A stretch of 64,000 bases of DNA from positions 248,001 through 312,000 of the forward strand of contig NZ_VIGW01000002.1 of NCBI RefSeq assembly GCF_007858435.1, given 5' to 3'. Both the position numbers and the translations under genes were made by a program. The stretch comes from Tsukamurella asaccharolytica. GTDB taxonomy: Bacteria > Actinomycetota > Actinomycetes > Mycobacteriales > Mycobacteriaceae. Below are positions 8,382-50,249 of the stretch, piece by piece (position 1 is the stretch's first letter; the number at the start of each line of letters is the position of its first letter). The notes below the pieces were generated by a model. That model did not search any database and was not told where the DNA came from. It saw only the letters and a list, made by a program, of their open reading frames with translations.

Positions 8382-8457
8382 GATTGAGCCCGCGGTGACT
8401 CGCGTCACGCTGCAGCGCATCATGCTTTGTGAGCGAGAGCAACCGGAGAGAGCGTCC

Positions 8458-8478
8458 GGTGGCCGCCGGGAGGCCACC
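8458..8478. terminator. hairpin downstream of SGNH hydrolase gene
   Basis: GGTGGCC, seven bases, GGCCACC, located 33 bp beyond the stop of the minus-strand SGNH gene. The rest of 8382-8511 shows no gene. Confidence 0.5.
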
Positions 8479-8511
8479 GAGCGGTCGACGGTGCGGCCGT
8501 CGAACGATCCG

Positions 8512-9153: not shown

Positions 9154-9244
9154 GCCGACATAGTGACACACCACATGTCACACGCGTAACAATCGCCGCA
9201 AATCATCACAGGGGCATCGTGCGCCCCAGCGAGCCCGGAATTCT

Positions 9245-10153: not shown

Positions 10154-10308
10154 GGCGGTGGAACCCTCTCTTCGAGCTCGTCGATCCCTCGGCACGGTGT
10201 GCGCGCCCGCGAGAAACATACTCGAATGCGCGGTGCCGCGCTGCATAGGACGCGCCGTGCGCCGGGCGGTGTGGCCGAGACAAAGCCGCAGCTAGACTAG
10301 ATCCGTCA

Positions 10309-11490: not shown

Positions 11491-11522
11491 GTGGTCGGCG
11501 GCCACTCGGCTCGGGACAGGGG

Positions 11523-11556
11523 ACGGCCCCGGGGGTCGTCGGACTCCCGGGGCCGT
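11523..11556. terminator. terminator between flavohemoglobin gene and hspR
   Basis: ACGGCCCCGGG pairs with CCCGGGGCCGT across a 12-nt loop, between convergent stop codons. Confidence 0.8.
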
Positions 11557-11571
11557 ATCGGCGGGGCCGCG

Positions 11572-11969
11572 TCAACCGTTCCGGCGGCTCCGCGGCTGCC
11601 ACACCACCATGGCGTTGGATTTGGGCACGTGCACGAGTTCCCCACCGCGGCGTACGTTCTCGACCTGCGCGGCGAGCTCCTCGACCCGCCGCTGCAGGGC
11701 GTCCACCTGGTTCGTCAGGTCGATGATCCGCTTGATCCCGGCGAGATTCACGCCCTCGTCCTGCGAGAGCCGCTGCACCTCGCGGAGCAGGTCGACATCG
11801 CGCGAGGAGTAGCGCCGGCCCCCGCCCGCCGACCGCTCGGGCGTCACGAGCCCGAGCCGGTCGTACGTGCGGAGGGTCTGCGCGTGCATCCCCGCGAGCT
11901 GCGCAGCCACCGAGATCATGAACACGTGCGCGTCCGGATCGTCGGGGAACTGCTGGTCGACGTTCATCA

Positions 11970-11970
<1 letters not shown>
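11572..11970 (-). CDS. hspR: HspR heat-shock repressor
   Basis: A 132-residue MerR-family regulator and last gene of the dnaK operon. The winged helix has FMISVAAQLAGMHAQTLRTY and the wing GGGRRYSSRDVDLLREVQRL, followed by a coiled coil (VDALQRRVEELAAQVENV). HspR binds HAIR sites with DnaK as co-repressor, so free DnaK limits its own synthesis. Its ATG overlaps the dnaJ stop by one base; two Met codons in tandem (11970 and 11967) are possible starts. Its targets here would be the three HAIR sites before dnaK and the two before clpB. Confidence 0.93.
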
Positions 11971-13205
<1,235 letters not shown>

Positions 13206-13220
13206 TGGGCATCACCTCCT

Positions 13221-13771
13221 CTATTGCTCGTCCTGGCTCGGGGCCTCCGCCGGACGGTCGACCACTGCGACCATCGCGTTACGGATCACCTTGCCATCGA
13301 TCTGATATCCCTGACGGAGCACCGCTCCCACCACGGGATCGGCACCCTCGCCCTCGTGCTGCACGGCCTCGTGGACGGAGGGATCGAACTGGTCGCCCAC
13401 CACGCCGAAGGACTCGAGCCCGAGGGTCTTGAGCACGCCGTCGAGCTTGTCGGACACCGACTTCAGCGGTCCGGCATCGAGGTCGCCGTGGCTGCGGGCG
13501 CGCTCGAGATCGTCCAGCACCACCAGCAGCTCGCCGACCACGAAAGCCTTGCCCGCGGCGCGGGCGTCCACCACGTCGCGCGCAGTGCGCTTGCGGTAGT
13601 TGGCGTACTCCGCGGTCACGCGCTGCAGATCGGCGGTGAGTTCCGCCTCCTTGTCCGGCGCGGCCTCTTCCACGACCTCGGCGTCGGCCGGGGCCGCGGC
13701 GGATTCCTCCGCCGCGACCTCCGCCTCCGGGGTCACCTCCTCCGGATCCACCGGATTCTCGGGACTCGTCA

Positions 13772-13772
<1 letters not shown>
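13221..13772 (-). CDS. grpE: GrpE nucleotide exchange factor
   Basis: A 183-residue GrpE. An acidic disordered N-terminus (about 1-45, Glu/Ala-rich) is followed by the long coiled coil and the family signature near the C-terminus ([20 protein letters not shown], then [16 protein letters not shown]). It releases ADP from DnaK. Its ATG overlaps the dnaK stop (TAATG), so translation is coupled. Confidence 0.95.
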
Positions 13773-15616
<1,844 letters not shown>

Positions 15617-15655
15617 ATTGATTTGCCTCCTGAGTAGTTCTGCTACAGATCCAGA

Positions 15656-15676
15656 CTTCAGCGCCCCTGGCTCAAG
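15656..15676 (-). promoter_or_regulatory. HAIR-like operator A of dnaK
   Basis: CTTCAGC, seven bases, GCTCAAG: one mismatch in the left half. It is about 40 bp upstream of the dnaK ATG, where it would overlap the promoter or start of transcription. Confidence 0.7.
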
Positions 15677-15701
15677 GGGCGAACCACTTCCGTTCTACCC
15701 C

Positions 15702-15722
15702 ATTGAGCCGATCACGCTCAAG
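15702..15722 (-). promoter_or_regulatory. HAIR operator B of dnaK
   Basis: ATTGAGC, seven bases, GCTCAAG: a good HspR site, 46 bp from operator A. Confidence 0.85.
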
Positions 15723-15778
15723 TAGTACGTCATGTCCAACGGGCGGCCGGACGAGAATGTTCCCGATTCTCGAAAAAA

Positions 15779-15799
15779 GTTGAGCGCAGTTCGCTCAAG
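15779..15799 (-). promoter_or_regulatory. HAIR operator C of dnaK
   Basis: GTTGAGC, seven bases, GCTCAAG: the most upstream site, 77 bp from operator B. The AT-rich stretch between B and C (including CGAAAAAAGT) may hold a promoter. Confidence 0.8.
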
Positions 15800-15884
15800 T
15801 AGCATTCCCCCAGGTCGTCGTCCCCCGCGCCGCGCCGAATCCCCTCGCATCCGTTCACTCCCCCATCAGACGCCGATCGCCCGA

Positions 15885-15905
15885 CGGGGGACCGACCGTC
15901 CCCCG
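15885..15905. other. hairpin in gene-free stretch 15800-16031
   Basis: CGGGGGAC, five bases, GTCCCCCG. The interval 15800-16031 between the dnaK operators and the metal ATPase gene holds no gene that I can support. It is C-rich with several CCCCC runs and contains only this hairpin and the terminator at 15973-16000. Confidence 0.5.
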
Positions 15906-38979: not shown

Positions 38980-39050
38980 GCCGATGTAGTTCAATGGTAG
39001 AACTCCTGCTTCCCAAGCAGGTAGCGCGGGTTCGATTCCCGTCATCGGCT
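38980..39050 (+). tRNA. tRNA-Gly (anticodon CCC)
   Basis: A full cloverleaf: the acceptor GCCGATG pairs with CATCGGC, the D arm contains GTTCAATGGTAGAAC, the anticodon stem is CCTGC/GCAGG with loop TTCCCAA, and the T arm has GGTTCGATTCC. CCA is encoded at 39051-39053. The 3' half is the left attachment site of the integrated element. Confidence 0.95.
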
Positions 39051-39054
39051 CCAC
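39008..39054 (+). other. attL core (3' half of tRNA-Gly)
   Basis: 47 bp, from GCTTCCCAAGC to GGCTCCAC, identical to 48221-48267. It starts in the anticodon stem and ends one base after CCA, typical of tyrosine integrases that use tRNA 3' ends. Confidence 0.93.
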
Positions 39055-39090
39055 CAATGACCTGCACGAATGTGGGTCCGCAAGCTCAAA

Positions 39091-40314
39091 TCAGGCCCCC
39101 GATCCGGCCTCGGTGTCACAGGATGTCACAACTGCTCCCAAACTCGCCGCGGCCTTGCGCAGCTCGTCGTCCTGGCTGTGCGCGTACGTCCGCTGTGTGA
39201 AGCTCGCGTCCGTGTGCCCGAGCCAGTACGCGATCACCGCCATCGGCACGCCCCGCAGGTGCATCGCGGTCGCCGCGGAGTGCCGGGCGTCGTGCAGCCG
39301 GATCTGCCGCACCCCGGCCTCGTCGGTGATCTCGTGCCACAGTCGGCCGATCGTGTTCGGGAAGTACGCGCGGCCGGCCTCGTCGGCGACGACGTACCCC
39401 TCAGCGCTGTACGCCTCCCCCAGCGCGAGCCGCTCGACCGCCTGGCGCTTCCGGGCATTCTTGAGCACGGTCACCAGGCCGGCGTCCACGGGCAACGTCC
39501 GGCGGCCCGCGGCCGTCTTCGGCGCGTTCTCCTCCACCGCGCCGTCGACCACGGTCTTGCTCACCACAGCGCGGCTGGTGGTCACCGTGATGATTCCGGC
39601 GGTGAGGTCGACGTGCTCCCACCGCAGGCCGGAGATCTCGCCTCGGCGGAACCCGGACAGGGCGAGGTACGCGAGCTGCCCGACGCGGTGCCCGTCGGCC
39701 TTGGCGAGCACCTTGCGGATCTCGTCGGGCGTGTAGGTGTCCATCTGCTTGGTGGTCAGCGGTAGCTTCTTGATCTTCTCCGCGACGTTGCGACCGAGTT
39801 CGCGCCGCTCGATGCCGTAGTCGAGGGCCGCGACGAGGTTCTCGAGCATCTTGTTCACCGACCGCGCCGCCCAGGGCTTCCGTGCGCGGCCGGCCTCGGT
39901 GAGGCTGCCGCCCTTGCGCATGGTCTCGATCAGCTCGTCGACGTGACGGCGGGTGAGCTTCTGCGCGGCGAGATCGCCGAGCTGCTCGCGCACCGGGGCG
40001 AGGTTGTACTCGTAGCTACTACGCGTGGTGCCTCGGACGTTGTGCAGCGAGCCGAGCCAGTCGGCGCACAGCTCGTCGACGGTGACAGCCTTGCGCGGCA
40101 CGTACGTGTCATCGGCGACCTGCCCGGCGATCTCGGTCAGCGCGTCCTTCGCAGCCTTCTCCGTTGGGAACCGTCGTCGTACCTGCCGGCGGCGGCCGGT
40201 CTCCGGGTGCACTCCGGCGTCCACGACCAGTTCGTAGCGGATGATCGTCTTGCCGGTGCGCCGATCGAGGACTTCTCGCTTGCGGATCTGTGGCGGGAGC
40301 TGCTGCCTACCCAT
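39091..40314 (-). CDS. tyrosine-type integrase
   Basis: A 407-residue phage integrase. An N-terminal arm-binding/SAM-like part (VDELCADWLGSLHNVRGTTR) precedes the catalytic domain, with the Arg in LSGFRRGEISGLRW, LHDARHSAATAMHLRG (His-x-x-Arg), WLGH and the nucleophile Tyr in RTYAHS. It lies next to attL with its stop 36 bp from the core, and its start overlaps the end of the XRE gene, so both are cotranscribed. Start 40314 (MGRQQLPPQ) is preferred to the in-frame site 12 bp upstream. Confidence 0.93.
   Translation of the reverse strand: MGRQQLPPQIRKREVLDRRTGKTIIRYELVVDAGVHPETGRRRQVRRRFPTEKAAKDALTEIAGQVADDTYVPRKAVTVDELCADWLGSLHNVRGTTRSSYEYNLAPVREQLGDLAAQKLTRRHVDELIETMRKGGSLTEAGRARKPWAARSVNKMLENLVAALDYGIERRELGRNVAEKIKKLPLTTKQMDTYTPDEIRKVLAKADGHRVGQLAYLALSGFRRGEISGLRWEHVDLTAGIITVTTSRAVVSKTVVDGAVEENAPKTAAGRRTLPVDAGLVTVLKNARKRQAVERLALGEAYSAEGYVVADEAGRAYFPNTIGRLWHEITDEAGVRQIRLHDARHSAATAMHLRGVPMAVIAYWLGHTDASFTQRTYAHSQDDELRKAAASLGAVVTSCDTEAGSGA
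39108..39136 (+). repeat. left copy of subterminal direct repeat
   Basis: CCTCGGTGTCAC, then a second GTCACAA after five bases. The same block, in the same orientation, recurs at 48093-48124 near the right end. It lies inside the 3' end of the integrase gene. It is a candidate integrase arm-type or excisionase site. Confidence 0.6.
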
Positions 40315-40870
40315 CGTCCACAACAATCAGTCCGGCATCGCGTGCCTCAATTTCGGCCGCTATTTTGGAGCGAACCGCCTCCTGCAATAGGTCTATGTCT
40401 CGCGTGTCCCGAAACTCAATCGCAGCGGCCCTCGCGAACTGACGCACCTCCTCGATTTTCCGCGCCTGGGAGGCCGGGCGATTGGCCTCTCGATACCGAC
40501 CTCCGTCGACACCTTCGACCATCGGCTCAATCCCCGAAAACCATTGCAGTGCAGCAATAGCCGTCATCTTGAGGCCCGGCAGAAGCTCAACCTCGCCGTC
40601 GGCCAGTTGGTCACCGAATAACAACACAGCGGGCGACGTATCCAGGGCGGCTGATAGCGATATCAGCTCGGCGACATCGAGCGTCTTCTTCCGGCCGGTC
40701 TCGAGGTCGCTAATCACGGCGCGGGAGATCGTCTTGCCGAATTGCGCAGTCCTGTCCGAGAGCTGTGCCGCGGTGAGACCGCGCTTGGTCCGCGCGACCC
40801 GCACTGCCGCCGCTACACGTGCAGGCAGGTCTGCATCCTGCCGAACTTCATCTCTACTCGTCATAGACAC
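40307..40870 (-). CDS. XRE-family repressor-like protein
   Basis: A 187-residue protein with an N-terminal helix-turn-helix (ARTKRGLTAAQLSDRTAQFG, then KTISRAVISDLETGRKKT) and an unassigned C-terminal part (LLQEAVRSKIAAEIEARDAG). It is cotranscribed with the integrase and divergent from the excisionase-like gene. It is the probable master repressor of the element; in satellites this would be the target of helper-phage induction. Base composition is clearly lower in GC than neighbouring genes. Start 40870 or 40864. Confidence 0.82.
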   Translation of the reverse strand: MSMTSRDEVRQDADLPARVAAAVRVARTKRGLTAAQLSDRTAQFGKTISRAVISDLETGRKKTLDVAELISLSAALDTSPAVLLFGDQLADGEVELLPGLKMTAIAALQWFSGIEPMVEGVDGGRYREANRPASQARKIEEVRQFARAAAIEFRDTRDIDLLQEAVRSKIAAEIEARDAGLIVVDDG

Positions 40871-40915
40871 GCACGGTAGTGGACTCTTGCGTACTTGTCA
40901 CGATTGTGGTTGCCT

Positions 40916-40941
40916 TACGAGCACGAGCCCTTCCGCTCGTA
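40916..40941. promoter_or_regulatory. candidate operator in the int/xis divergent region
   Basis: TACGAGC, twelve bases, GCTCGTA, in the 96-bp divergent promoter region between the repressor and excisionase-like genes. Confidence 0.55.
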
Positions 40942-40966
40942 GAAACCACGAACCCAAAGGGAATCG

Positions 40967-41173
40967 ATGATGCCCACCAACCTGCCGAATCCTCCGGTAC
41001 CGCTCCTGAACGATCACGCCGATGTAGGCGCCCAACTCAAGGTCAGCCGGTCGACCGTCTTCGCCCTCTGGAAGTCCGGCGCACTCGCAAGCGTCACGAT
41101 CGGCAAACGGCGCTTCAGCACCGACAAGCAGATCGCCGAGTACATCGACCGCCTCGAAGCCGGCGTCGCATGA
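40967..41173 (+). CDS. excisionase-like HTH protein
   Basis: A 68-residue MerR/AlpA-type helix-turn-helix protein: VGAQLKVSRSTVFALWKSGA, then TIGKRRFSTDKQIAEYIDRL. This size and pattern, as first gene divergent from the repressor, suggests an excisionase or AlpA-type activator. Two tandem ATG codons (40967 and 40970). AAAGGGAATCG upstream is the ribosome site. Its stop overlaps the next start (ATGA). Confidence 0.8.
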   Translation: MMPTNLPNPPVPLLNDHADVGAQLKVSRSTVFALWKSGALASVTIGKRRFSTDKQIAEYIDRLEAGVA

Positions 41174-41403
41174 CGCACTACTGGGCGCTCGTCGTGTTCC
41201 TCGCCGTGCTCGCGGTCATGGCCGCCGCATCAGACGCGGACCAGCGCCGGCGCGCGCGGTACGCCGCCCTCGACGAGAACGCCGACCTCTGCCGCGGCCA
41301 GCAGGTCGACCGCACCCCGGAAATGAGAGCGGCCCCGGTGCATCCCGCCAAGAACGCCACCGAGGCCATCAACCAGATCACCCACCAACAGGAGAACCAG
41401 TAA
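41170..41403 (+). CDS. small single-pass membrane protein
   Basis: A 77-residue protein. An N-terminal membrane helix (YWALVVFLAVLAVMAAASDA) is followed by a charged cytoplasmic tail (DQRRRARYAALDENADLC, then NATEAINQITHQQENQ). Coupled on both sides (ATGA and TAATG). Unrecognised; small membrane proteins in phages and satellites can block superinfection, but that is speculation here. Confidence 0.6.
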   Translation: MTHYWALVVFLAVLAVMAAASDADQRRRARYAALDENADLCRGQQVDRTPEMRAAPVHPAKNATEAINQITHQQENQ

Positions 41404-41741
41404 TGAGCACGGTAGACCAGCACGCCGACGCGCGTCGAACGCGACGGCTCACCACCGTCATCGAGTACGCCGACGGGACCGCCCATATCGTCGTCGACCC
41501 CACCGACCGCCGCGACACCTTCGCCGCGTTCCTCCGCGACTACTTCGACGGCGACATCGCCATCGCCGCCGCGCCCGACGAGTACCTGCCGCACGATCCC
41601 GCCACGCTCGTACGGCTCGGCATCAACGCCGCCGAGTACGCCGGCACCGCGCACGCGATCGCCCAGCTCGTCGGCTTCGACCCGCACGACGGCGCCATGA
41701 TCCTCGACGTCGTCGCGGCCGCGCTGGAGGTCGCCCGGTGA
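41403..41741 (+). CDS. hypothetical protein of the element
   Basis: A 112-residue soluble acidic protein with no recognised domain. Segments of note: TTVIEYADGTAHIVVDP, FAAFLRDYFDGDIAIAAA and FDPHDGAMILDVVAAALEVA. Its ATG overlaps the previous stop and its stop overlaps the next GTG. Confidence 0.65.
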   Translation: MSTVDQHADARRTRRLTTVIEYADGTAHIVVDPTDRRDTFAAFLRDYFDGDIAIAAAPDEYLPHDPATLVRLGINAAEYAGTAHAIAQLVGFDPHDGAMILDVVAAALEVAR

Positions 41742-41947
41742 TCGCCGAGCCGAAACGCGACGCGCCCGCCCGAAACGAGGCCTCCGACGTGCTGCACCTG
41801 TGGTTGTCCGCGTGCGCAACGGCGACGCTGTGCGGGCTGCCCGGGACGCCCAACCGCCCCGTCACCGGACCAGCCGGGCGACGGAAAGCGCGCAAGTACA
41901 CCGACTGCCGTTACCTGCGCGCCCTCGAGGAACAGCTCTCCACCTGA
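41738..41947 (+). CDS. small hypothetical protein of the element
   Basis: A 69-residue GTG-started protein: a helical, uncharged middle (SDVLHLWLSACATATLCGL) and a basic end (GPAGRRKARKYTDCRYLRAL). No recognised family. It is followed 3 bp later by a 19-bp perfect hairpin. Confidence 0.55.
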   Translation: MIAEPKRDAPARNEASDVLHLWLSACATATLCGLPGTPNRPVTGPAGRRKARKYTDCRYLRALEEQLST

Positions 41948-41950
41948 CCG

Positions 41951-42009
41951 CCCGGTGTCGTGGCGGCGGGGGATACGCCCACCACCAGGGCCGCCGCCAC
42001 GACACCGGG
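41951..42009. other. 19-bp perfect inverted repeat upstream of the primase gene
   Basis: CCCGGTGTCGTGGCGGCGG (41951-41969) pairs exactly with 41991-42009; the loop is 21 nt. It lies 3 bp after a stop codon and 42 bp before the primase-polymerase start. It may be a terminator/attenuator or part of the element's replication origin. Confidence 0.8.
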
Positions 42010-42051
42010 ACACCACCCAACCCGATTCGGAGACAAGGAATCCCGCCGAAC

Positions 42052-42948
42052 ATGACCACCGAAGACCCCTCATGGTGGGCACGCCACTACGGCAAACACG
42101 AGATCGAGGTGTTCCGCTGCAAGCCCGGCAGCAAGGTGCCGGCCGGTGGCCGCGGCCACCTCGACGCCACCACAGACGACGAACAGATCCAGCGATGGTG
42201 GCCTGCAGGGGCCGACTGGAACATCGGCGGCCGGCCCCCGGCGGACATCGTCGTACTCGACATCGACACCGTCGAAGGGCACGGCGTCGACGGCATGGCG
42301 AACCTCCTCGACCTCGCCGCCGGCCGCCCGATCCCCTGGCACTCCGTCACCGCGATGTCCCCCACCGGCTCCCTGCACCTGTGGGTCGAGCACCCCGGCC
42401 CGTACCGCGGACGCCTCTGCGACGGCGTCGACATCAAGGGCCACGGCGGGTACGTCGTACTGCCCCCGTCGGTGCACCCCAACGGCGGCCGGTACGCCTG
42501 GATCAGTAGCCCCGAAGCGTACATCGAGCAGCCGGCCGAGTGGCTCGCCGACGCGATCCGTCCGCAGCAGCGGATCCCGGTGGCGCGCCCGCTGTCTCGG
42601 CCGCGTGCCCTCCTGCCTCCGCTGCTTCGGGGCTCGTCGATCGCCGATGAGTTCACCGCGAACACCACGTGGGCCGAGATCCTCGGCCCGCACGGGTGGC
42701 GGCTCGCTCGCGGCACCGGCGACGACGACGGGAGCGTCTGGCTCCACCCCGCGGCCACGTCGGCGTGCTCCGCGACGGTCCGCAACGGCTGCCTGTTCGT
42801 GTACTCGACGAACACCCCGTTTGAGGTCACCGAGCACGGCGACACCCACGGCTACACCAGGTTCCGGGCGCACGCCGTGCTCGATCACGCCGGCGACCTC
42901 GCGGCGGCAGCGCGCGCCGCGCGCACCGGCAGGGCGGGGGCAGCATGA
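42052..42948 (+). CDS. bifunctional primase-polymerase (PrimPol)
   Basis: A 298-residue archaeo-eukaryotic-type primase. The catalytic acidic pair is in VVLDIDTVEG, the nucleotide-binding motif appears as SPTGSLHLW, and the third motif in GVDIKGHGGYVVLPPS, followed by HPNGGRYAW. It primes and perhaps extends the element's DNA. The start is ATG 42052 with an AAGGAATC site. Coupled by ATGA to the RepA-like ATPase, the usual partner. Confidence 0.85.
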   Translation: MTTEDPSWWARHYGKHEIEVFRCKPGSKVPAGGRGHLDATTDDEQIQRWWPAGADWNIGGRPPADIVVLDIDTVEGHGVDGMANLLDLAAGRPIPWHSVTAMSPTGSLHLWVEHPGPYRGRLCDGVDIKGHGGYVVLPPSVHPNGGRYAWISSPEAYIEQPAEWLADAIRPQQRIPVARPLSRPRALLPPLLRGSSIADEFTANTTWAEILGPHGWRLARGTGDDDGSVWLHPAATSACSATVRNGCLFVYSTNTPFEVTEHGDTHGYTRFRAHAVLDHAGDLAAAARAARTGRAGAA

Positions 42949-44132
42949 CGTTCACGCCCGCGACCGACGACGAGGCGCTGCAGCTCGAGGAGGCGGTTCG
43001 GTACCACCTGCTCGTACGCCATGCACGCGACGAGGCCGATCGCCGATACGAGGAGAGCAATCGCGCGCAGGTCGAACTCCCGCCGCGCCGACGTCTCGAC
43101 GCGTTCACCGCTGAGCCGGACCCGTTGACCGCCTGGCGCATCAGCGGGCTGCAGCCCGCGGGCGCGCGGGCACTGCTGGCCGCCCAGTACAAGGCCGGCA
43201 AGACGACCCTCGTCGGCAACGTGATCCGCTCCCTCGCAGACGGTGACCCGTTCCTCGGTCGGTACGAGGTGGTGCGTCCCGATCGTGTGGCGCTGCTCGA
43301 CGACGAACTCGACGAGAACATGCTCCGGATCTGGCTTCGCGAACAGGGAATCGAGAACGGCCAACAGGTCGACGTCTACTCGCTCCGCGGCCGCCTCGGA
43401 TCGTTCAACATCCTCGACGACGCGACCCGCGCACGCTGGGCCGAACACCTCGCGGGCGTCGAGTACGTGGTGCTCGATTGTCTGCGCCCCGTGCTCGATG
43501 CGCTCGGCCTCTCCGAGGACAAGGACGCCGGGCGTTTCCTCGTCGCATTCGACGCGCTGCTGTACGAGGCGGGAGCCAAGGAGGCGCTCGTCGTTCACCA
43601 CATGGGCCACCAAGGCGAGCGGACCCGCGGCGACTCCCGGCTTCTCGACTGGCCCGACGTCGGCTGGAAGATCCTCCGCGCCGAGCCTGACAATCCCGCG
43701 TCGGCTCGGTTCTTCTCGGCCTACGGCCGCGGGGTGGACATCCCGGAGGGGCGCATGATCTTCGACGAGGGCTCGCGGAGACTGAGCTACTCGGGCGGGT
43801 CACGCCGGGACGAGAAGGCCGAGGCGGCGTTGTCCGCCATCGTCGAGGTGCTTGCCGAGCGTGCCGTCGCCGCGGCGCCGGCAGCGGCGCTCAGCGGCCG
43901 TGAGATCAAGGCGGCGCTCGCCGACAGTGAGCACAGCAAGCACGCGATCGACGCCGCCCTGAAGCTGCGAAGCGCACGCGAACTGTTGGCGACGGAGGAC
44001 GGTCCGAGGGGTGCGAAGCTCCATCGGATCGCGCGCCCGTGTGCGTCATGCGGAAATCCGCTGACCGCGGGACAGATCGGGCGGCACCTCACCTGTGTCG
44101 CCGCTGGTAGGAGCGGCGGGGGTGCGGCATGA
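42945..44132 (+). CDS. RepA-like AAA/RecA-fold ATPase
   Basis: A 395-residue replication helicase-like ATPase. Walker A is LAAQYKAGKTTLVGNVI near residue 85, Walker B is EYVVLDCLRPVLDAL near 175, and VVHHMGHQGERTRGDS carries sensor residues. The C-terminal part looks like a winged helix (LSGREIKAALADSEHSKHAI) and ends in a Cys-containing finger (CASCGNPLTAGQIGRHLTC). With the PrimPol it should drive replication of the excised element. A regulatory role in helper-phage exploitation cannot be judged. Confidence 0.82.
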   Translation: MTFTPATDDEALQLEEAVRYHLLVRHARDEADRRYEESNRAQVELPPRRRLDAFTAEPDPLTAWRISGLQPAGARALLAAQYKAGKTTLVGNVIRSLADGDPFLGRYEVVRPDRVALLDDELDENMLRIWLREQGIENGQQVDVYSLRGRLGSFNILDDATRARWAEHLAGVEYVVLDCLRPVLDALGLSEDKDAGRFLVAFDALLYEAGAKEALVVHHMGHQGERTRGDSRLLDWPDVGWKILRAEPDNPASARFFSAYGRGVDIPEGRMIFDEGSRRLSYSGGSRRDEKAEAALSAIVEVLAERAVAAAPAAALSGREIKAALADSEHSKHAIDAALKLRSARELLATEDGPRGAKLHRIARPCASCGNPLTAGQIGRHLTCVAAGRSGGGAA

Positions 44133-44569
44133 CCCATCAGTGTCCCGAGTGTCCCGGCAGTGTCCCCAGTGTTTCAGGGGACGCTGGGTGTTCAGTGTCC
44201 CAGTGTCCCAGCGCTTCTATAGGCGCGGGACACGGGACACACACCCGAAAGCCACTCGGAGCACTCGACCCCGAAGCCGTGATCGACGCCCTCGCCGCGA
44301 TCCTCGCCGGCACCCCGAAGCTCGACGGCGCCGCGTGCGATCGGCAACACGCCCTGTTCGACGCGGCACGCCCCGGCGAGGCCCCCGACGACGTCGGGTA
44401 CCGCCACGGCGCGGCCGCGACGATCTGTCAGACCCGCTGCCCAGCACTCGAGGACTGCACGCGCTGGCTCGACTCACTCCCCGCACGGCATCGCCCGCAC
44501 GGCGTCGTCGCCGGGCGCATCCCCGAGCCGGCTCGCATCGCCGGTCGACCCCGAAAGGACCCGCGATGA
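44129..44569 (+). CDS. WhiB-like Fe-S protein (phage type)
   Basis: Up to 146 residues. The C-terminal ~95 residues look like a phage WhiB: a Cys in LDGAACDRQHALFD, then ICQTRCPALEDC (Cys-x3-Cys-x5-Cys, where classical WhiB has Cys-x2-Cys-x5-Cys), and HGVVAGRIPEP in place of the GVWGG turn. Such proteins carry a 4Fe-4S cluster and modulate host transcription. The first ~50 codons are built from AGTGTCCC repeats that look non-coding; GTG 44279, giving a 96-residue protein, may be the true start. The annotated ATG overlaps the upstream stop (ATGA). Confidence 0.6.
   Translation: MTHQCPECPGSVPSVSGDAGCSVSQCPSASIGAGHGTHTRKPLGALDPEAVIDALAAILAGTPKLDGAACDRQHALFDAARPGEAPDDVGYRHGAAATICQTRCPALEDCTRWLDSLPARHRPHGVVAGRIPEPARIAGRPRKDPR
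44138..44240 (+). repeat. iteron-like cluster of AGTGTCCC repeats
   Basis: Nine-base units (C/G)AGTGTCCC start at 44138, 44147, 44158, 44193 and 44201, with a degenerate CAGTGTTTC at 44167. Two tandem inverted copies GGGACAC follow at 44227 and 44234. The cluster sits right after the PrimPol-ATPase pair. Spacing of 8-11 bp between several copies resembles replication iterons. Confidence 0.7.
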
Positions 44570-44766
44570 ACACCCCTGCCGCTCGACGGTGCCGGAGCTG
44601 CTCGCTCGAGCTGCACGACGCCGCCACCACCGACATGTGCGACGACTGCGCCGAGCCCGCCCCATCGCGCCCGCCGGCACCCGCACCGCCGCCGCTGCGC
44701 CCCGTCACCGTCGACTCGGCCAACAGTCGCCGCCCCGGCGTCGCGCACCTTCGCCTCAACCGATAA
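44566..44766 (+). CDS. small zinc-ribbon-like protein
   Basis: A 66-residue protein. CRSCSLELHDAATTDMCDDC holds two CxxC pairs 14 residues apart, a zinc-ribbon pattern, followed by a Pro-rich stretch and NSRRPGVAHLRLNR. ATGA-coupled to the WhiB-like gene. Most of it is repeated at 45000-45180. Confidence 0.6.
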   Translation: MNTPAARRCRSCSLELHDAATTDMCDDCAEPAPSRPPAPAPPPLRPVTVDSANSRRPGVAHLRLNR

Positions 44767-44932
44767 GCCCACCTCCCGAACGGAGATCCCACCGTGAACA
44801 TCCGCATCAAGTCCCTCACTCAGCGGCCCGACAACCGCGGCGACGTCACCGTGACCGTCGCCATCCGCAACCACCGCCTGACGCTGTCGCTCAACGGTGT
44901 CGGCCGCGTCGAACTCGACCGCGCCGGCGCCC
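44586..44932 (+). repeat. 347-bp tandem duplication, left copy
   Basis: Identical by my reading to 45000-45346 (offset 414). It covers all but the first six codons of the zinc-ribbon gene and the first half of the following small gene. Confidence 0.92.
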
Positions 44933-45180
44933 GCCGCGACCTCGAATCGACTGCGGAAATTCCGCAGTCGGACGAGCGGGTCTCGGGGGACGGCCGAGTA
45001 CGGTGCCGGAGCTGCTCGCTCGAGCTGCACGACGCCGCCACCACCGACATGTGCGACGACTGCGCCGAGCCCGCCCCATCGCGCCCGCCGGCACCCGCAC
45101 CGCCGCCGCTGCGCCCCGTCACCGTCGACTCGGCCAACAGTCGCCGCCCCGGCGTCGCGCACCTTCGCCTCAACCGATAA
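44794..45180 (+). CDS. chimeric open frame made by the duplication
   Basis: A 128-residue frame. Its first 46 residues equal the start of the next small gene (MNIRIKSLTQRPDNRGDVTV and on). A 22-residue unique stretch (RRDLESTAEIPQSDERVSGD) follows, and then the zinc-ribbon protein from its first Cys pair to its end. It is a fusion of the interrupted left copy of one gene to the right copy of the other. Whether it is translated to a stable protein is unknown. Confidence 0.55.
   Translation: MNIRIKSLTQRPDNRGDVTVTVAIRNHRLTLSLNGVGRVELDRAGARRDLESTAEIPQSDERVSGDGRVRCRSCSLELHDAATTDMCDDCAEPAPSRPPAPAPPPLRPVTVDSANSRRPGVAHLRLNR
44948..44970. other. perfect palindrome in the duplication spacer
   Basis: CGACTGCGGAA and TTCCGCAGTCG flank one central base. 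It lies in the 67-bp unique spacer (44933-44999) between the two copies and may mark the foreign junction. Confidence 0.6.
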
Positions 45181-45346
45181 GCCCACCTCCCGAACGGAGA
45201 TCCCACCGTGAACATCCGCATCAAGTCCCTCACTCAGCGGCCCGACAACCGCGGCGACGTCACCGTGACCGTCGCCATCCGCAACCACCGCCTGACGCTG
45301 TCGCTCAACGGTGTCGGCCGCGTCGAACTCGACCGCGCCGGCGCCC
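45000..45346 (+). repeat. 347-bp tandem duplication, right copy
   Basis: Right copy of 44586-44932. It continues into the intact version of the small gene at 45208-45393. Confidence 0.92.
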
Positions 45347-45393
45347 TGCAGCTCGCCCACTTCATCGCCGACGAAGGCGGCCAGCTCCGATGA
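45208..45393 (+). CDS. small beta-rich protein of the element
   Basis: A 61-residue protein, MNIRIKSLTQRPDNRGDVTV, then VAIRNHRLTLSLNGVGRVEL, ending LAHFIADEGGQLR. Mostly beta-strand by pattern, with no recognised family. It is the intact copy of the gene truncated in the chimeric frame upstream. A GAACGGAGATC site precedes the GTG start; ATGA coupling to the next gene. Confidence 0.6.
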   Translation: MNIRIKSLTQRPDNRGDVTVTVAIRNHRLTLSLNGVGRVELDRAGALQLAHFIADEGGQLR

Positions 45394-45572
45394 ACGTGCC
45401 ACCGTGCGACTGCGACTGCCACCGCTGGTTCTGCCCCGACGGCCTCGGCTGCTGCGACGGCTACTGCGACATGTGCGGCGGCCTCGGCGGCGGCGATGAC
45501 ACTATGCCCCGACATCCCGACTTCGACTGCGGCTGCGACCCGATCTGCGGCACCCACCAGGCCACACCGTGA
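45390..45572 (+). CDS. Cys-rich small protein
   Basis: A 60-residue protein with about twelve Cys (CDCDCHRWFCPDGLGCCDGY, then CDMCGG, CGCDPICGTH) and several Asp/His. It probably binds zinc or another metal through two knuckles. No recognised family. Coupled on both sides (ATGA, GTGA). Confidence 0.6.
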   Translation: MNVPPCDCDCHRWFCPDGLGCCDGYCDMCGGLGGGDDTMPRHPDFDCGCDPICGTHQATP

Positions 45573-45880
45573 ACCTCAGCCCCGACGAGGTCCGCGCCGC
45601 CCTGTTCCTCGCCCGGCATCACCGCGCCCGCGGGCTCCCCGTGCCGCCGAAGGTCGCCGTCTTCGTCCAACGCCTCGAACTCGAAATGCACTGTTCCCCA
45701 AGAGGAACAGGCCAACCATCCGCCGTGGCATCCTCGGACCTAGTCGGAACCACCGAAGCCGCCCGCATCCTCGGCTGCACCCCACGGCACGCCCGAACGC
45801 TCGCACCCCGCCTCGGCGGAACACGCATCGCAGGGCGATGGATGATACCCAAAACCGCACTCCCACAGGAGGACCCATGA
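45569..45880 (+). CDS. HTH DNA-binding protein of the element
   Basis: A 103-residue GTG-started protein. A helical N-terminus (SPDEVRAALFLARHHRARGL) is followed by a MerR/excisionase-type HTH (LVGTTEAARILGCTPRHART) with a short wing (GTRIAGRWMIPKTAL). It may regulate late genes of the element. Coupled by ATGA to the next gene. Confidence 0.7.
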   Translation: MNLSPDEVRAALFLARHHRARGLPVPPKVAVFVQRLELEMHCSPRGTGQPSAVASSDLVGTTEAARILGCTPRHARTLAPRLGGTRIAGRWMIPKTALPQEDP

Positions 45881-46215
45881 AGAACGACGAAGCCGGCACC
45901 GGCAGCGGCGGCCAGTACCTCGACGACGTCGAACAACGCCTCGGCGACCTCACCGTCGAAGAGTTCCGCACCCTCACCCGGCAGGTCTTCCAGGAGAGCG
46001 CCGTCGACCTCAAGGAGCAGGCCGCGACCGCGCTCCGCGACTACGTCGGCCGCAACACCGCGACCGTCAACGACCCGGACAAGCCCGCCGCCGACAAGCC
46101 CGACCCCGCCTTGAAGTCCGGCGCCGCCGCCGAGGAAGAACCCCTCGCACCCGGCGAGAAGAAGCGACAGGCCACCCGCGCCCTCCGCGTCCGCCTCGGC
46201 CGCGGCGACGCCTAA
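45877..46215 (+). CDS. hypothetical acidic helical protein
   Basis: A 112-residue protein: YLDDVEQRLGDLTVEEFRTL, then FQESAVDLKEQAATALRDYV, then a disordered Asp/Pro/Ala stretch and a basic end (EKKRQATRALRVRLGRGDA). The layout of an acidic helical region with a basic tail resembles small scaffold-like phage proteins, but no family is assigned. Confidence 0.55.
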   Translation: MKNDEAGTGSGGQYLDDVEQRLGDLTVEEFRTLTRQVFQESAVDLKEQAATALRDYVGRNTATVNDPDKPAADKPDPALKSGAAAEEEPLAPGEKKRQATRALRVRLGRGDA

Positions 46216-46234
46216 CACCCACGAGGAGACCGCC

Positions 46235-46984
46235 ATGACCACCGACCACCGCTACCGCGCACGCGACGCCGTCGCCACCTTCGACCGCCTAGGCATCGCC
46301 CTGCCCGACCCGGTCCTCGACGCCGTCGCCGCGCTCGACCAGGTCGACGCCGCCCGCCCCGAGCAGCCCGACCCCGGCGCCGTCGCGCAGCTCATCGCCG
46401 ACGGCGCACCCGCCAAGACCGTCACCGCCGCACTCGAAGCCAGCGCCCTGCACGGCGCCCACCTTTCCGCGTGGCAGCAGGCCCGACAGATCACCGGCCG
46501 CCGCGTCACCACCGCGATCCTCGACCACGCCAGCGAACTGCACGCCGCCCTCGCTGAACAGGCCGACACCGCGATCGCCATCCTCGAGGCCGACGCCCAC
46601 ATCGACAAGCCCCTCGCCGAGCTGGTGCGGACAGGCGAGACCGACGCCGCCCGCACCGTCGCCGGCGCCGACCACGCCGCGGAACTCCTCGACAGCCTCG
46701 GCACCGTCCGCGACCTGTGGCTCAAGCCCCTGGGGTCCACCCACGACGCCAGCGGCGTGAACTGCGGCACGTGGCGCGATCCACGCGCGCTCGACGGTCG
46801 CCTCCATGGAGCAACGACCCCTCGAGAGGTCTTTCGCATGGGTATCCGCGCCGGCGGACAGCTGTGGTTCCCCACCGTCGACGAGGCCCGCGCCGCCGCC
46901 GAGAAGATCGCCACCCAGCTCCGCGCCAAGGCGGAAGCCGAAGCAGCGGCCACCCGCGGCGCCGGCGGCCTCACCTCGTTCTGA
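46235..46984 (+). CDS. hypothetical protein of the element
   Basis: A 249-residue Ala-rich helical protein. Segments: FDRLGIALPDPVLDAVAALD, SAWQQARQITGRRVTTAILD and a C-terminal FPTVDEARAAAEKIATQLRA. Actinophages and integrated elements carry similar unnamed proteins. Followed by a strong hairpin, so it probably ends the main transcript. Confidence 0.6.
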   Translation: MTTDHRYRARDAVATFDRLGIALPDPVLDAVAALDQVDAARPEQPDPGAVAQLIADGAPAKTVTAALEASALHGAHLSAWQQARQITGRRVTTAILDHASELHAALAEQADTAIAILEADAHIDKPLAELVRTGETDAARTVAGADHAAELLDSLGTVRDLWLKPLGSTHDASGVNCGTWRDPRALDGRLHGATTPREVFRMGIRAGGQLWFPTVDEARAAAEKIATQLRAKAEAEAAATRGAGGLTSF

Positions 46985-46996
46985 CCCCTGAAGCCT

Positions 46997-47041
46997 GCGG
47001 TGGGCGGCGAGTCCTGTGGAAATGTCCTCGCCGCCCACCGC
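46997..47041. terminator. strong hairpin terminator in the element
   Basis: GCGGTGGGCGGCGAG and its exact complement (15 bp) with a 15-nt loop, 13 bp after a stop codon. A second GC hairpin at 47069-47095 follows. The rest of 46985-47169 holds no gene; CCGGAAGGAG at its end is the next ribosome site. Confidence 0.8.
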
Positions 47042-47169
47042 GATCCACCAGCCACACGCCACCGGGGCGAGGGTGGGGGGTGACTCCCACCCCTCACCAC
47101 GGCGGCACCCGTGGCCTAGTGGCTCGCAATTCGCGTATTACAACCGAGATCCGCCGGAAGGAGCCCGTG

Positions 47170-47541
47170 ATGGGTCGCAGGATGACCGAGGGGCGCAAGC
47201 TGCGGCGACGTCTCGACGCCGCGCTGGCCGCTGAAGCGTCGCGCCTGGGCCGGACGTTGGTGTGGGACGACCGGGAGCTCGAGTACCTCGCGCTCGCGGA
47301 GGGCGCGGCCGACCGTCGCGCCGATCTTCTCGCGCTGCTCGCGGCCGAGCAGGCCGGCGCCGCGGGCACGGCGCTGATTGTGAAGCTGAACACAGAGATC
47401 CGGGCACAGGACCGCGCCCTTGTCGACCTACTCGGCCGGATCCACATCGGCGAGGGGCCGGCGAAGAGCGTGCGGCACCAGAAGGCGGTGCAGGTCCGGT
47501 GGGACCGCCAGCGTGAGCAGGAGGCGACCGGTGGCGCGTAG
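47170..47541 (+). CDS. hypothetical protein, possible small terminase subunit
   Basis: A 123-residue charged helical protein: MTEGRKLRRRLDAALAAEAS, then WDDRELEYLALAEGAADRRA, LIVKLNTEIRAQDRALVDLL and a basic end (GPAKSVRHQKAVQVRWDRQR). Proteins of this composition precede packaging genes in actinophages, and satellites often keep only a small terminase. The identity is a guess. A GTG 3 bp upstream is an alternative start. Confidence 0.5.
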   Translation: MGRRMTEGRKLRRRLDAALAAEASRLGRTLVWDDRELEYLALAEGAADRRADLLALLAAEQAGAAGTALIVKLNTEIRAQDRALVDLLGRIHIGEGPAKSVRHQKAVQVRWDRQREQEATGGA

Positions 47542-47821
47542 CGTCGGCCCCTCAGCAGCCACCACCGCGCGGGGACTCCTCGCGGGCCTCGTCGAGCACT
47601 GGGACTCGCTCATCGGCACCTACGGCGACCGTGTCGACGTGTCCGACGGCTGCTTCGTCGCTCCGTGGCCGGAGCAGATCGAGCGGGTGGAGGCCGGGCG
47701 GCCGGTGGTGGTCACCCGGGTGGAGTTGACGGCCGCGTGCCGCCTCGCCGGGCTACCGGTCCCGCCGGCGGGTCACCGGTTCCGCGTTGACGCCGACGGG
47801 CGGATCACGCGGCTGGCTTAG
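47531..47821 (+). CDS. small hypothetical protein
   Basis: A 96-residue GTG-started protein overlapping the previous gene by 11 bp: LLAGLVEHWDSLIGTYGDRV, FVAPWPEQIERVEAGRPVVV, and a C-terminal PPAGHRFRVDADGRITRLA. No recognised family. Its 3' end overlaps the convergent Rmf-like frame by 69 bp. Confidence 0.5.
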   Translation: MARSVGPSAATTARGLLAGLVEHWDSLIGTYGDRVDVSDGCFVAPWPEQIERVEAGRPVVVTRVELTAACRLAGLPVPPAGHRFRVDADGRITRLA

Positions 47822-48007
47822 GTGCCGCTGCGACAGGTACGCCTGCCGGGCGGGCGAGGTCGCGAGGCGATCGGCGAGCATCTGCCGGTACCCGGCGCGC
47901 CACATCTGGGCCAGCACGGGCGTGATGTTGCCGTCGTACGGGTTCGAGGTGCCCGGCTCAGCGACGAGGCCGGCGCGGCGGGCGTTGAGGATCTCGATGA
48001 CGGTCAC
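47753..48007 (-). CDS. Rmf/CrpP-fold-like small protein
   Basis: An 84-residue frame from GTG 48007, preceded by CAGGAGG. The middle reads ARRAGLVAEPGTSNPYDGN, then LAQMWRAGYRQMLADRL, the Ala/Gly-helix, NPY, W-x-x-G pattern of small Rmf/CrpP-type proteins common on mobile elements. Those related proteins bind ribosomes or other targets; this one is unassigned. It is the only right-end gene on the minus strand. Confidence 0.5.
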   Translation of the reverse strand: MTVIEILNARRAGLVAEPGTSNPYDGNITPVLAQMWRAGYRQMLADRLATSPARQAYLSQRHLSQPRDPPVGVNAEPVTRRRDR

Positions 48008-48092
48008 GGGTGGCAGCCTCCTGAGACGAGGGCGGGGCCGCACTGCCTCCATGGGGATGGAGGGGCGCACCCCGCACTGCCGATCGTACAGC

Positions 48093-48124
48093 CCTCGGTG
48101 TCACGAGGGTGTCACAAGTGCTGC
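48093..48124 (+). repeat. right copy of subterminal direct repeat
   Basis: CCTCGGTGTCAC, six bases, GTCACAA, matching 39108-39136. It is 96 bp from attR. The gene-free interval 48008-48220 holds this, a CCTCCAT-N4-ATGGAGG hairpin (48046-48063) and nothing else I can support. Confidence 0.6.
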
Positions 48125-48220
48125 ACACCGCCGCATACGTCCCCGCACTGATTCGTACGCAACAGCGCAGGTCAAAGACGCGACGGTATCGCAGCGAACT
48201 TCCCGAATCGGCTTCGGTCA

Positions 48221-48267
48221 GCTTCCCAAGCAGGTAGCGCGGGTTCGATTCCCGTCATCGGCTCCAC
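48221..48267 (+). other. attR core
   Basis: A perfect 47-bp copy of the tRNA-Gly 3' half (39008-39054). The sequence 5' of it does not resemble the tRNA 5' half, so this copy is not a working tRNA. Confidence 0.93.
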
Positions 48268-48315: not shown

Positions 48316-49266
48316 TCACCGATCAACCGGCCCGCCGGATGCCCCCTCGAGCCGTGAGTTCGTCCGTGCCGCGGTCAGCACCTCGAAGATCGCCGAGTGC
48401 ATGGCCGACGGGGCCTCCAGCGGAATCAGGTGCCCCGCGTCCTCGATAACGACGGCCTTGCCGTTGGAGACTCGCGCCATCGAGTCGACGGCTGAATCGA
48501 TGATGATCCTGCGACTGTTCTTCGCACCCATGTCGATGCGACCGCCCTGCAGACAGATCGTTGGAACATCGGGCGGGCCGGTGACCTGTAGCCGCCGCAT
48601 CAGGGGAAAAGCGTCGACGATGTGCTCCGCCTCGCGTCCCGCGGCCTCCATGGCACGGACGCTGATCCAGTCGCGCGTGATGGTGGCGAGATCGGCTTGA
48701 CTGACTTCCGTCGAAACACCATGGGGGAGAAACGCTCGCACAGCGAGCCTTCCCCCTCCGGCCCGAATCAGGCCGCGCAGGACACGGAACATCCACCGTA
48801 TCGATCGCACGCTTCTCTCGGAGAAGACCTCTGCGACGCTGGAGTCGACGAGGACCAGGCCGGCCACCCGTTGGGGATACCTGTCGGCGAAGAGCCGCGC
48901 GATGGGCCCGCCCCAGCTGTGGCCGACCAGGACCACCGGCCCTGTTTCATTCGAGGCGTCGAGAACGGAGGTGAGGTCGTCGACGATCCGTTCCAGCGTG
49001 CGGTCCGCGGCGTCGACGTCGCTGCCGCCGTAACCGGCGCGGTCGTAGGCGAGAGTGCGGCAATGCGCACTGACTGCGCGCTGGGAGTGGACCCAGGTGT
49101 CGGCCGTCCCACTGATGCCGGCCTCGAAGACGACCAGTGGCCCGGCGCCGGACCCCGCCACGACCGTGCGCACCGTGCGGCCGTCGGGCACGGTGACGTG
49201 CCGCTCTGCCAGGGCTGGTCCGAGCGTTCCCCCCGGGTCGGGGGCCGCTGTCCGATCACGCGACAT
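48316..49266 (-). CDS. alpha/beta hydrolase
   Basis: A 316-residue alpha/beta hydrolase. Oxyanion region VVFEAGISGTADTW, LAYDRAGYGGS, nucleophile elbow GHSWGG (Ser) and terminal EDAGHLIPLEAP (His). No signal peptide. Start ATG 49266 has AGGAG 5-8 bp upstream; the open frame reaches 49398. Substrate unknown. It is the first chromosomal gene beyond attR. Confidence 0.75.
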   Translation of the reverse strand: MSRDRTAAPDPGGTLGPALAERHVTVPDGRTVRTVVAGSGAGPLVVFEAGISGTADTWVHSQRAVSAHCRTLAYDRAGYGGSDVDAADRTLERIVDDLTSVLDASNETGPVVLVGHSWGGPIARLFADRYPQRVAGLVLVDSSVAEVFSERSVRSIRWMFRVLRGLIRAGGGRLAVRAFLPHGVSTEVSQADLATITRDWISVRAMEAAGREAEHIVDAFPLMRRLQVTGPPDVPTICLQGGRIDMGAKNSRRIIIDSAVDSMARVSNGKAVVIEDAGHLIPLEAPSAMHSAIFEVLTAARTNSRLEGASGGPVDR

Positions 49267-49442
49267 CGAAACTCCTTTGACGTTGTCCCATTCACAAATC
49301 GTTGCACGAAACGACCTGGTCATGGCACGTAAACCGGGGAATTCGACATTCGTAGCGGCGTCACGCTCACTTCTTCGACATCGTCGAATACTCCGCACCC
49401 ACCCGCTCTAATAGAATGCGTGAATCACGCCCGCGGTTTCTC

Positions 49443-50249
49443 TCATTCGTTTTCGAGTTGAACGGAGTGGACGAGATTCTCGACTCCCTCGCTCCGGACC
49501 ATCTGGTCGGCGTAGAGCTGCGCGTTGGTCACGAACAGGAAGGGGAGGACCGTGAGCTGGCCGATCACCCAACCCCCGTTCGCGAGCGCCAGCCTCAGGA
49601 ACGTCTGCATCCCCTCGTCGCCCTCCGGACGCGCGGTCAGAATGAACGGCAGATTCGCGACCATCGAGACCACGATGACCAGTAGATACGTGCAGACGAC
49701 ACGACCCAGGAGTCGCCCGTATCCGCGACGTTGCAGTGCAACGGCGCGCCAGAGGGCATCGACGGGCTTCAGCCCCTCGATCACCAACATCGGTCCCGAG
49801 AGAGCGAGAGCCGGCAGCAGCGCGATCACGATCAGCGCGGCGCACCCCAACAGGGCCGTCGAGGTCAGGCGCGCGCCGTCCGGCCCCGCACGTACAGCGA
49901 GCGCGATGGCTGTCGCGACGGCGACGACGATCGGCGTGAGGATCACCACCGCGTTCAGGCCACCGAGACCGAGAGCCGCCGGGAGCCGCGGCCGCGCCTG
50001 ACGCCACGCGACCCGCAGGGAGGTGCGGTCGCCGCCGGAATGGCGGTAGGTCACCACGGTGCACAATGCGGCCACCGCAACACTGACCACAACCCAGGTC
50101 AGGGTGACCAGGACCGTACCCGCCGGGTACAGCCCGATCAGTTCCAGTATCTGACGGACGTCCCGGTCGGCGACGGCGGTCGACCGCGAGTCGTCGATGA
50201 GCGGCAGGCGAGCGAGCAGGCCGAGCGCCGCGATCGTCGTCAGCAGCAC
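49443..50249 (-). CDS. multi-pass membrane protein (GDPD-membrane-domain-like)
   Basis: At least 268 residues with about six membrane helices (WVVVSVAVAALCTVVTY, AVVILTPIVVAVATAIALAV, ALIVIALLPALALSGPMLVI). The pattern resembles the actinobacterial family related to glycerophosphodiesterase membrane domains. From GTG 50249 the first helix is cut; the reading frame upstream encodes the expected N-terminus (LGGIYRSSLRILRANPGPTL) back to about 50345, where only a CTG overlapping the upstream stop (CTGA) is available. The start is therefore uncertain. Confidence 0.6.
   Translation of the reverse strand: MLLTTIAALGLLARLPLIDDSRSTAVADRDVRQILELIGLYPAGTVLVTLTWVVVSVAVAALCTVVTYRHSGGDRTSLRVAWRQARPRLPAALGLGGLNAVVILTPIVVAVATAIALAVRAGPDGARLTSTALLGCAALIVIALLPALALSGPMLVIEGLKPVDALWRAVALQRRGYGRLLGRVVCTYLLVIVVSMVANLPFILTARPEGDEGMQTFLRLALANGGWVIGQLTVLPFLFVTNAQLYADQMVRSEGVENLVHSVQLENE

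Follow-up and report, generated by a model that had tools for sequence, protein, structure and literature searches.

The stretch analysed here, called the window throughout, comprises 64 kb of Tsukamurella asaccharolytica DNA (contig NZ_VIGW01000002.1, positions 248,001 to 312,000; source genome of 4.12 Mb in 81 contigs), and between its positions 39008 and 48267 lies a compact element that is integrated into a tRNA-Gly(CCC) gene and encodes an integrase, a replication module and a protein identified, by homology and context, as a terminase small subunit (TerS). The direct repeats which bound the element agree in 47/47 bases, their adjoining bases differ, and an excised circle of 9213 bp is predicted from their spacing; the GC content of the element is 70.1% as compared to 70.7% for the window. 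The features of the locus are as follows.

38980-39053, plus strand: tRNA-Gly(CCC), the integration target (ARAGORN; Rfam tRNA 73.5 bits)
39008-39054, plus strand: left attachment site attL, 47 bp, perfect direct repeat
39091-40317, minus strand: tyrosine integrase (PF00589 2.3e-18, Arm-DNA-bind_4 9.7e-7)
40307-40870, minus strand: XRE-type repressor (PF01381, HTH_3, 1.3e-6)
40967-41173, plus strand: Xis/AlpA-like small helix-turn-helix (HTH) protein, weak match (HTH_17 0.015, phrog_7735 excisionase 0.009)
41170-41947, plus strand: three small genes (41170-41403, 41403-41741, 41738-41947) without notable family match
42052-42948, plus strand: PrimPol primase-polymerase (PF09250 1.5e-30)
42945-44132, plus strand: AAA_25 RepA-like ATPase (PF13481 1.5e-23)
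44139-44240, no strand: iterons and candidate origin, with five direct AGTGTCCC and two inverted GGGACAC arranged around a 17-bp centre
44279-44569, plus strand: WhiB-like protein from its likely start, weak match (longer frame: phrog_9926 0.0016, Pfam Whib 0.041)
44586-45346, plus strand: exact 347-bp duplication (44586-44932, 45000-45346) over small genes
45569-45880, plus strand: HTH protein, start of the late module, weak match (HTH_17 0.0026)
45877-46215, plus strand: small acidic protein of the late module, assigned by eye from position and motif
46235-46984, plus strand: o249, directly upstream of the terminase gene (homologues in 6/301 genomes)
46985-47169, no strand: gap with two strong stem-loops, a candidate packaging or terminator site (DNA fold z = -4.1)
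47170-47541, plus strand: probable TerS (phrog_1496 0.028 when searched alone; hhalign 96%, E 4.3e-9)
47531-47821, plus strand: small gene downstream of TerS, without convincing family (one scan, on the longer frame)
47753-48010, minus strand: RMF-like phage-family protein (longer frame: PF04957 1.8e-10, phrog_1757 2.4e-22)
48221-48267, plus strand: right attachment site attR, 47 bp, perfect direct repeat

The integrase and repressor genes run divergently from the other genes, an arrangement known from Gram-positive phage-inducible chromosomal islands (PICIs), with the gene at 47753-48010 as one more on the minus strand. The WhiB-like gene probably starts at GTG 44279, since upstream of this codon the longer frame is taken up by the iterons, and the two copies of the internal duplication are separated by a 67-bp spacer. 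The Xis-like reading of the small HTH protein is backed by homologues adjoining the integrase gene in relatives, the PrimPol was found to have a homologue (1e-69) in a capsid-bearing element (locus L116), the AAA_25 ATPase shares 47-57% identity, along part of its sequence, with the helicases of five M. abscessus/chelonae prophages, and the gene at 47531-47821 resembles, by eye, those following TerS at L024, L025 and L027. Pfam and phrog scans of all 19 predicted proteins matched no relaxase, FtsK/TraB, capsid, portal, terminase large subunit (TerL) or lysis protein, as the first-pass annotation of this DNA had stated; the element has no frame above about 330 aa besides those of integrase, PrimPol and ATPase, and ten of its small proteins, scanned with PADLOC, gave no match to defence genes. 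The perfect repeats in tRNA-Gly(CCC) and the integrase, repressor, PrimPol and RepA-like ATPase listed in that annotation are likewise borne out, by the tRNA call and by firm family matches respectively, whereas its excisionase-like HTH and WhiB-like proteins are present in the order given but match their families weakly. Its about ten small genes without a family mostly stay so, except that the 47170 product is now assigned as TerS and that of 47753-48010 as RMF-like.

For the integration site, the joined flanks were searched in the 16 genomes of the genus sample (the source and 15 sister species) and 17 kb at the site was taken from the 15 sisters. The search for empty sites, suggested at first pass, found the site to be empty in 10 of the 15 sister species, where a conserved right-flank gene (window 49443-50249) lies no more than about 0.7 kb from the tRNA gene and the proteins of the element are unmatched, so that the element is to be regarded as an optional insertion. 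At the same tRNA gene, L052 (G006) carries a decayed integrase, 89.6% identical over the C-terminal part, within a stretch of 10.6 kb; in one frame at this locus (1253-3082), a long low-complexity N-terminal region is joined to the C-terminal portion of the integrase of the element. The site holds 5 kb of other genes in L055 and a 1.9-kb insert with a second att core in L056, and the right flank differs in L057 and L059. No phage was recognised at the site in the 15 sisters, no TerL, portal or tail genes were seen there in close relatives, and the element's PrimPol was found in one of the 16 genus genomes, its own. The att core was found, at about 90-92% identity, in 18 Gordonia phage records, a sequence likeness only and to phages of another genus, among them GAL1, which has been induced with mitomycin C (PMC4972346). 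An alpha/beta-hydrolase gene (window 48316-49398) separates attR from the conserved flank; in the sister genomes it has no match at this site.

The ATPase gene ends at 44132, and the iterons that come next form the densest 7-mer cluster of the window with seven copies in 130 bp as compared to at most five elsewhere; six copies of AGTGTCCC were counted in the window (1.9 expected), five of them within the cluster. The choice of 7-mers and of 130-bp stretches dates from the analysis of the window, and a limit of 200 bp from the 3' end of the replicase gene was set after that first look. At these settings the densest cluster lies within the limit in 11 of 14 bounded elements with a called replicase, where 1.06 would be expected (P about 3e-11, a rough value; the L094 hit rests on nine tied regions, and L022, L091, L095 and L096, which are bounded and had no replicase called, are omitted). 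The same placement was found in four of five later bounded elements (L123, with five tied regions, L124, L131 and L169; not L175), giving 15 of 19 when the actinomycete integrative and conjugative element (AICE) L122 is left out, in which the iteron cluster does not lie at the replicase 3' end. In PICIs, the origin consists of two iteron sets located immediately 3' of the replicase gene (PMC6092414), and positions 44139-44240, placed in the same manner, are suggested to be a candidate replication origin, the site being observed and its use presumed.

The product of the 47170 gene, which had been singled out for a search at first pass, is a terminase small subunit as judged by homology and context. 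Of 251 genomes from the same family, 10 (the source genome among them) contain homologues, and with an alignment of ten TerS homologues (A1), the members of which match it by construction, 43 matches at 42 loci including the window were obtained, distributed over 38 of 401 genomes including the source. At L113, L115, L117 and L119, all prophages, TerS directly precedes TerL and portal genes, L113 and L115 residing in two sister species of the window's genus. Profile-profile comparison of A1 with the four prophage TerS gave the hhalign value listed above, the L115 TerS matches phrog_1496 at 4e-26 and, as tblastn query, mycobacteriophage TerS at 3e-23, the L113 TerL matches phrog_9 at 1.5e-58, and one of the ten A1 members matches Terminase_4 of Pfam (2.7e-5). 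The AlphaFold model of TerS is all-helical with a mean pLDDT of 83, which falls to 51-63 in the last third (residues 91-123). The TerS of the window and that of L019 were unmatched in phage records, scans of viral contigs, for which PrimPol, one TerS and A1 served as queries, confirmed nothing, and comparison of the TerS profile with solved structures, carried out at the sequence level, returned a single meaningless match. With respect to a packaging signal, 9- to 12-mers common to the 42 TerS regions did not exceed 20 random controls, the stretch 46985-47200 had no meaningful match in phage DNA (two at E 0.7), and no cos or pac site was identified in these shared-motif and phage-DNA searches of the TerS region.

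Besides the window, 41 TerS loci were fetched, and as several of these end at contig ends or at the 20-kb limit, gene absences within them are not to be taken as proof. TerL and portal clusters are missing near TerS in 37 of the 41, the remaining four being prophages, so the prospect of prophage relatives with structural genes, raised at first pass as a possible refutation, applies to a minority. Over 38 genomes phrog_9 hits (E to 1e-6) adjoin an A1 TerS nowhere but in these four prophages, and TerL queries of three kinds (from L113, L163 and L177) found only these among the 41 loci; phrog_2 gave no match next to A1 TerS in the 38 genomes, a weak negative because even the four TerL-bearing prophages were unmatched. 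Within the 37 loci without TerL, a tyrosine integrase is located nearby in 19, a WhiB-like gene in 15, a replicase belonging to the clusters of this analysis in 14, a major capsid gene no further than 3.5 kb away in 12 (of which L020 and L023 were tested and match phrog_10; L101, with a capsid gene 6 kb away, and L102, with a weak one, were excluded), an o267/o299 gene in 11 and a scaffold-like gene in nine. A tape-measure gene was found in six (L019, L026, L097, L102, L104 and L106; two were tested and match phrogs at E 0 and 1.7e-181, and the other four were assigned by their likeness to these). At least L093, L103, L114 and L120, which have no tyrosine integrase match, carry a probable serine recombinase, judged by eye. 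At the limits used, capsid genes never occur together with tape-measure or o267/o299 genes in the 37 loci. The six tape-measure loci show a long tape-measure gene without a nearby capsid gene, and they join a theme already noted, because putative tape-measure genes have been reported in PLE-like elements and capsid-forming PICIs (PMC12987554). Bounding direct repeats, 6.8-15.4 kb apart, were inferred for 12 of the 41 loci, in 10 of the 12 at a tRNA gene (the repeats of L020, L024, L090 and L098, being shorter or less well placed, are uncounted); tRNA-Gly(CCC) is also used by L027, L100 and L112, and at a tRNA-Lys, 40-bp repeats enclose L097, one of the tape-measure elements. Capsid genes are carried by several relatives sharing PrimPol (L116), AAA ATPase (L171) or TerS.

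Upstream of TerS the HTH protein, the small acidic protein and o249 form the late module. Homologues of its HTH protein were found at L163, L164, L165 and elsewhere, and the six genomes with o249 homologues include the source genome, two of the six matches being weak. At L163 a TerL gene (phrog_9, 3.3e-81) comes after the order HTH, small protein and o249, and inspection by eye showed neither a portal nor a capsid gene; at L164, between 18-bp repeats beside a tRNA-Thr, the same order precedes an unrelated TerS (phrog_1459, 1.1e-10), and at L165 a homologous late module is present with no recognised terminase. Because the slot after o249 holds three different kinds of terminase gene (A1-family TerS in the window, the unrelated TerS in L164, TerL in L163), the module appears to be tied to packaging. 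Searched against 50,697 phage records, o249 gave no match at E 0.01. A relationship of o249 to capsid, scaffold, o267 or o299 proteins was considered and rejected (hhalign probabilities of 0.1-6%).

PICIs have been described to possess integrase, regulator, primase/replicase and sometimes terS genes in a conserved order, a specific att site with direct repeats which is unused by the temperate phages of the species, packaging by way of a TerS homologue or a helper cos or pac site in some members, family-exclusive genes, and phage-dependent induction, interference and transfer (PMC6092414). The element combines a repeat-bounded att site, divergent integrase and repressor genes, iterons 3' of the replicase and a TerS; as regards family-exclusive genes, 37 of the 41 TerS loci are without TerL and four are prophages, and o249 is unmatched in phage records. 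Judged by this anatomy, the element is a PICI-like satellite, namely a capsid-less variant of the kind already proposed for Mycobacterium, and we assign a probability of roughly 0.8 to its being a helper-dependent phage satellite that is packaged through its own TerS. The first-pass annotation had proposed the PICI-like gene order, which holds and is now complemented by the iterons behind the replicase gene, and an actinobacterial satellite, a reading strengthened by TerS, gene order, iterons and TerL-less relatives in all but its helper dependence, which is still a deduction. Its remark that such islands are poorly described in mycolate bacteria is half right, as Mycobacterium candidate PICIs were published in 2023 (PMC10654092).

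In the suggested mechanism the element resides at the 3' end of tRNA-Gly(CCC), where the XRE repressor would silence it until helper infection or prophage induction lifts repression. Next, the divergent HTH protein and the integrase may, in line with the anatomy observed, excise the 9.2-kb circle, which PrimPol and the AAA ATPase would replicate from the iterons behind the ATPase gene. Late in the cycle, the module of HTH protein, small acidic protein and o249 would be produced together with TerS, whereupon TerS is expected to mark the satellite DNA and to recruit the large terminase of the helper, such that the DNA would be packed into helper-built particles.

A prophage resides on the same contig outside the window (C21:430347-482846), comprising 52.5 kb between 37-bp repeats at a tRNA-Arg(ACG) and encoding TerS, TerL, portal, capsid, a 1624-aa tape measure, an endolysin-like protein and an integrase (TerL by phrog_9, the other genes named by eye). 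Apparently intact, it was missed by PF03354 and PF04860 (0 matches) and found by phrog_9. It is a helper candidate by its presence in the genome, and unproven as such. A helper relationship by way of shared DNA was considered and rejected, the longest exact match to the element being 18 bp and that of five controls 17-21. Prophages with an A1-type TerS are found in two sister species.

Several points weigh against the satellite reading. While boundaries, empty sites, TerS, iteron placement and recurrence are observed, we infer induction, the excision reaction, replication, packaging and helper dependence; most genes of the element have no recognised family, the Pfam scan with the window TerS was empty and its phrog_1496 match is weak, and the integrase and PrimPol types are found in AICEs as well (PMC3218068). 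Prophages account for four of the 41 TerS loci, and in the surroundings of nine of the remaining 37 (L021, L025, L092, L098, L101, L108, L109, L111 and L118) neither an integrase nor a replicase, capsid or tape-measure gene was matched. The TerS of the resident prophage falls outside family A1, its exact DNA match to the element does not rise above background, and the sole low-E blastn match between the two spans 44 bp at 86% (5e-6).

Of the other explanations, a satellite by descent that has lost its mobility is unlikely: it would agree with a PrimPol confined to one of the 16 genus genomes, with a GC content near that of the window and with the 347-bp internal duplication, yet the core genes are open and the att repeats identical. 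A relic of an AICE is judged very improbable. AICEs, defined by an FtsK/SpoIIIE-type Tra protein and replicating by modules of the RepSA, RepAM or PrimPol type, likewise use tRNA 3' ends, a tyrosine integrase, Xis and PrimPol (PMC3218068), and of these traits the element has the integrase and the PrimPol module, while an FtsK-type transfer protein is unmatched in its 19 proteins. A contig scan with the integrase, a query suggested at first pass, did yield 12 loci; these include L122 of Nocardia transvalensis, a 10.5-kb element with a 53%-identical integrase, an FtsK protein (phrog_1358 4.6e-32) and a RepSA-like gene (by eye), L126 of Nocardia cyriacigeorgica with a similar FtsK, and L123 and L124 of Mycobacterium, elements of 9.3 and 9.7 kb with capsid genes. 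As the integrase is thus common to conjugative elements and satellites, it cannot decide between the two and by itself proves nothing. Against an AICE stand, however, the TerS of the element, the capsid genes of relatives sharing its PrimPol, AAA ATPase or TerS, the lack of iteron placement in L122 and an AICE FtsK query that was unmatched in the 41 TerS loci and in 14 loci retrieved because of their o249 or AAA homologues; a transfer ATPase or relaxase, the discovery of which was to have made the element conjugative, was not found in it. Least probable is a decayed prophage stripped of its structural genes, since the likeness of the ATPase to McProf-type prophage helicases, the TerS and RMF-like genes as phage genes and the four prophages among the TerS loci are outweighed by identical att repeats and open core genes, by twelve repeat-bounded TerS relatives of similar compact size in other genomes and by the recurrent replicase-iteron plan. 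The TerL, portal, capsid, tail and lysis genes that characterise a prophage are unmatched in the 19 proteins.

Two further small elements of the same genome are of note. L028 (G000:C42, 7422-15291) is of the same plan, spanning 7.8 kb between 44-bp repeats at a tRNA-Ala(GGC) with integrase, HTH, PrimPol, ATPase and TerS-like genes (phrog_1496 3.8e-5), its densest 7-mer cluster not lying at the replicase end. L177 (G000:C31, about 800-15900), located between two flavodoxin-like gene pieces, encodes a serine recombinase (by eye), an ATPase 49% identical and a TerL (phrog_38 1.4e-81), with no portal or capsid gene recognised; L177-like TerL genes also occur in L172 (15048-16685) and L175 (5042-6568), loci with homologues of the element's ATPase. 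As a single genome holds three small elements with terminase genes and a prophage that seems intact, helper dependence is directly testable in one strain.

A tentative and rather doubtful extension is that of a separate, largely uncounted mycolate satellite family, in which one chassis (integrase, repressor/Xis, PrimPol or primase, ATPase, iterons and WhiB-like regulator) would carry an exchangeable late cassette, the o249 module replacing capsid genes. The cassettes would comprise own capsid and scaffold, a tail tape measure, TerL, or the HTH/acidic/o249 module with TerS, each taking over a different step of helper virion assembly, and o249 with its partners might be a new device for virion remodelling or late control. 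The published Mycobacterium search would miss a capsid-less TerS type with its own replicon because it looked for capsid genes (PMC10654092), so that existing satellite counts for Mycobacterium, Nocardia, Rhodococcus and related genera may be too low. No description of such a type in mycolates was noticed in the literature searched, as far as titles and abstract openings tell, and a survey of actinobacterial prophages has suggested that elements below 15 kb may be satellites (PMC10023795).

Compared with AICEs of the pSAM2/SLP1 type, the element shares a related integrase, Xis, PrimPol and the tRNA site, but has a TerS in place of a match to an FtsK-type transfer protein. With the PICIs of Gram-positive cocci it has in common the order of integrase and regulator, a replicase with the origin behind it and terS; it differs in its predicted replication by PrimPol and AAA_25, in having no recognised interference gene and in an att core that is also found in Gordonia phage records, and it is known here from sequence alone. 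The Mycobacterium candidate PICIs are defined by an integrase and a major capsid gene, some carrying terminase and scaffold genes and some occupying an attB used by prophages, with induction not yet shown (PMC10654092); host group and tRNA integration are shared and the capsid-bearing relatives look like that kind, whereas the element itself, having no capsid match, lies outside their definition. Capsid-forming PICIs and the Streptomyces satellites MulchRoom and MiniFlayer, the latter with capsid genes and no obvious replicase (PMC10690885), resemble it in the satellite plan and in the scaffold-like and capsid genes of its relatives, but in contrast to these the element would take its virion proteins from the helper.

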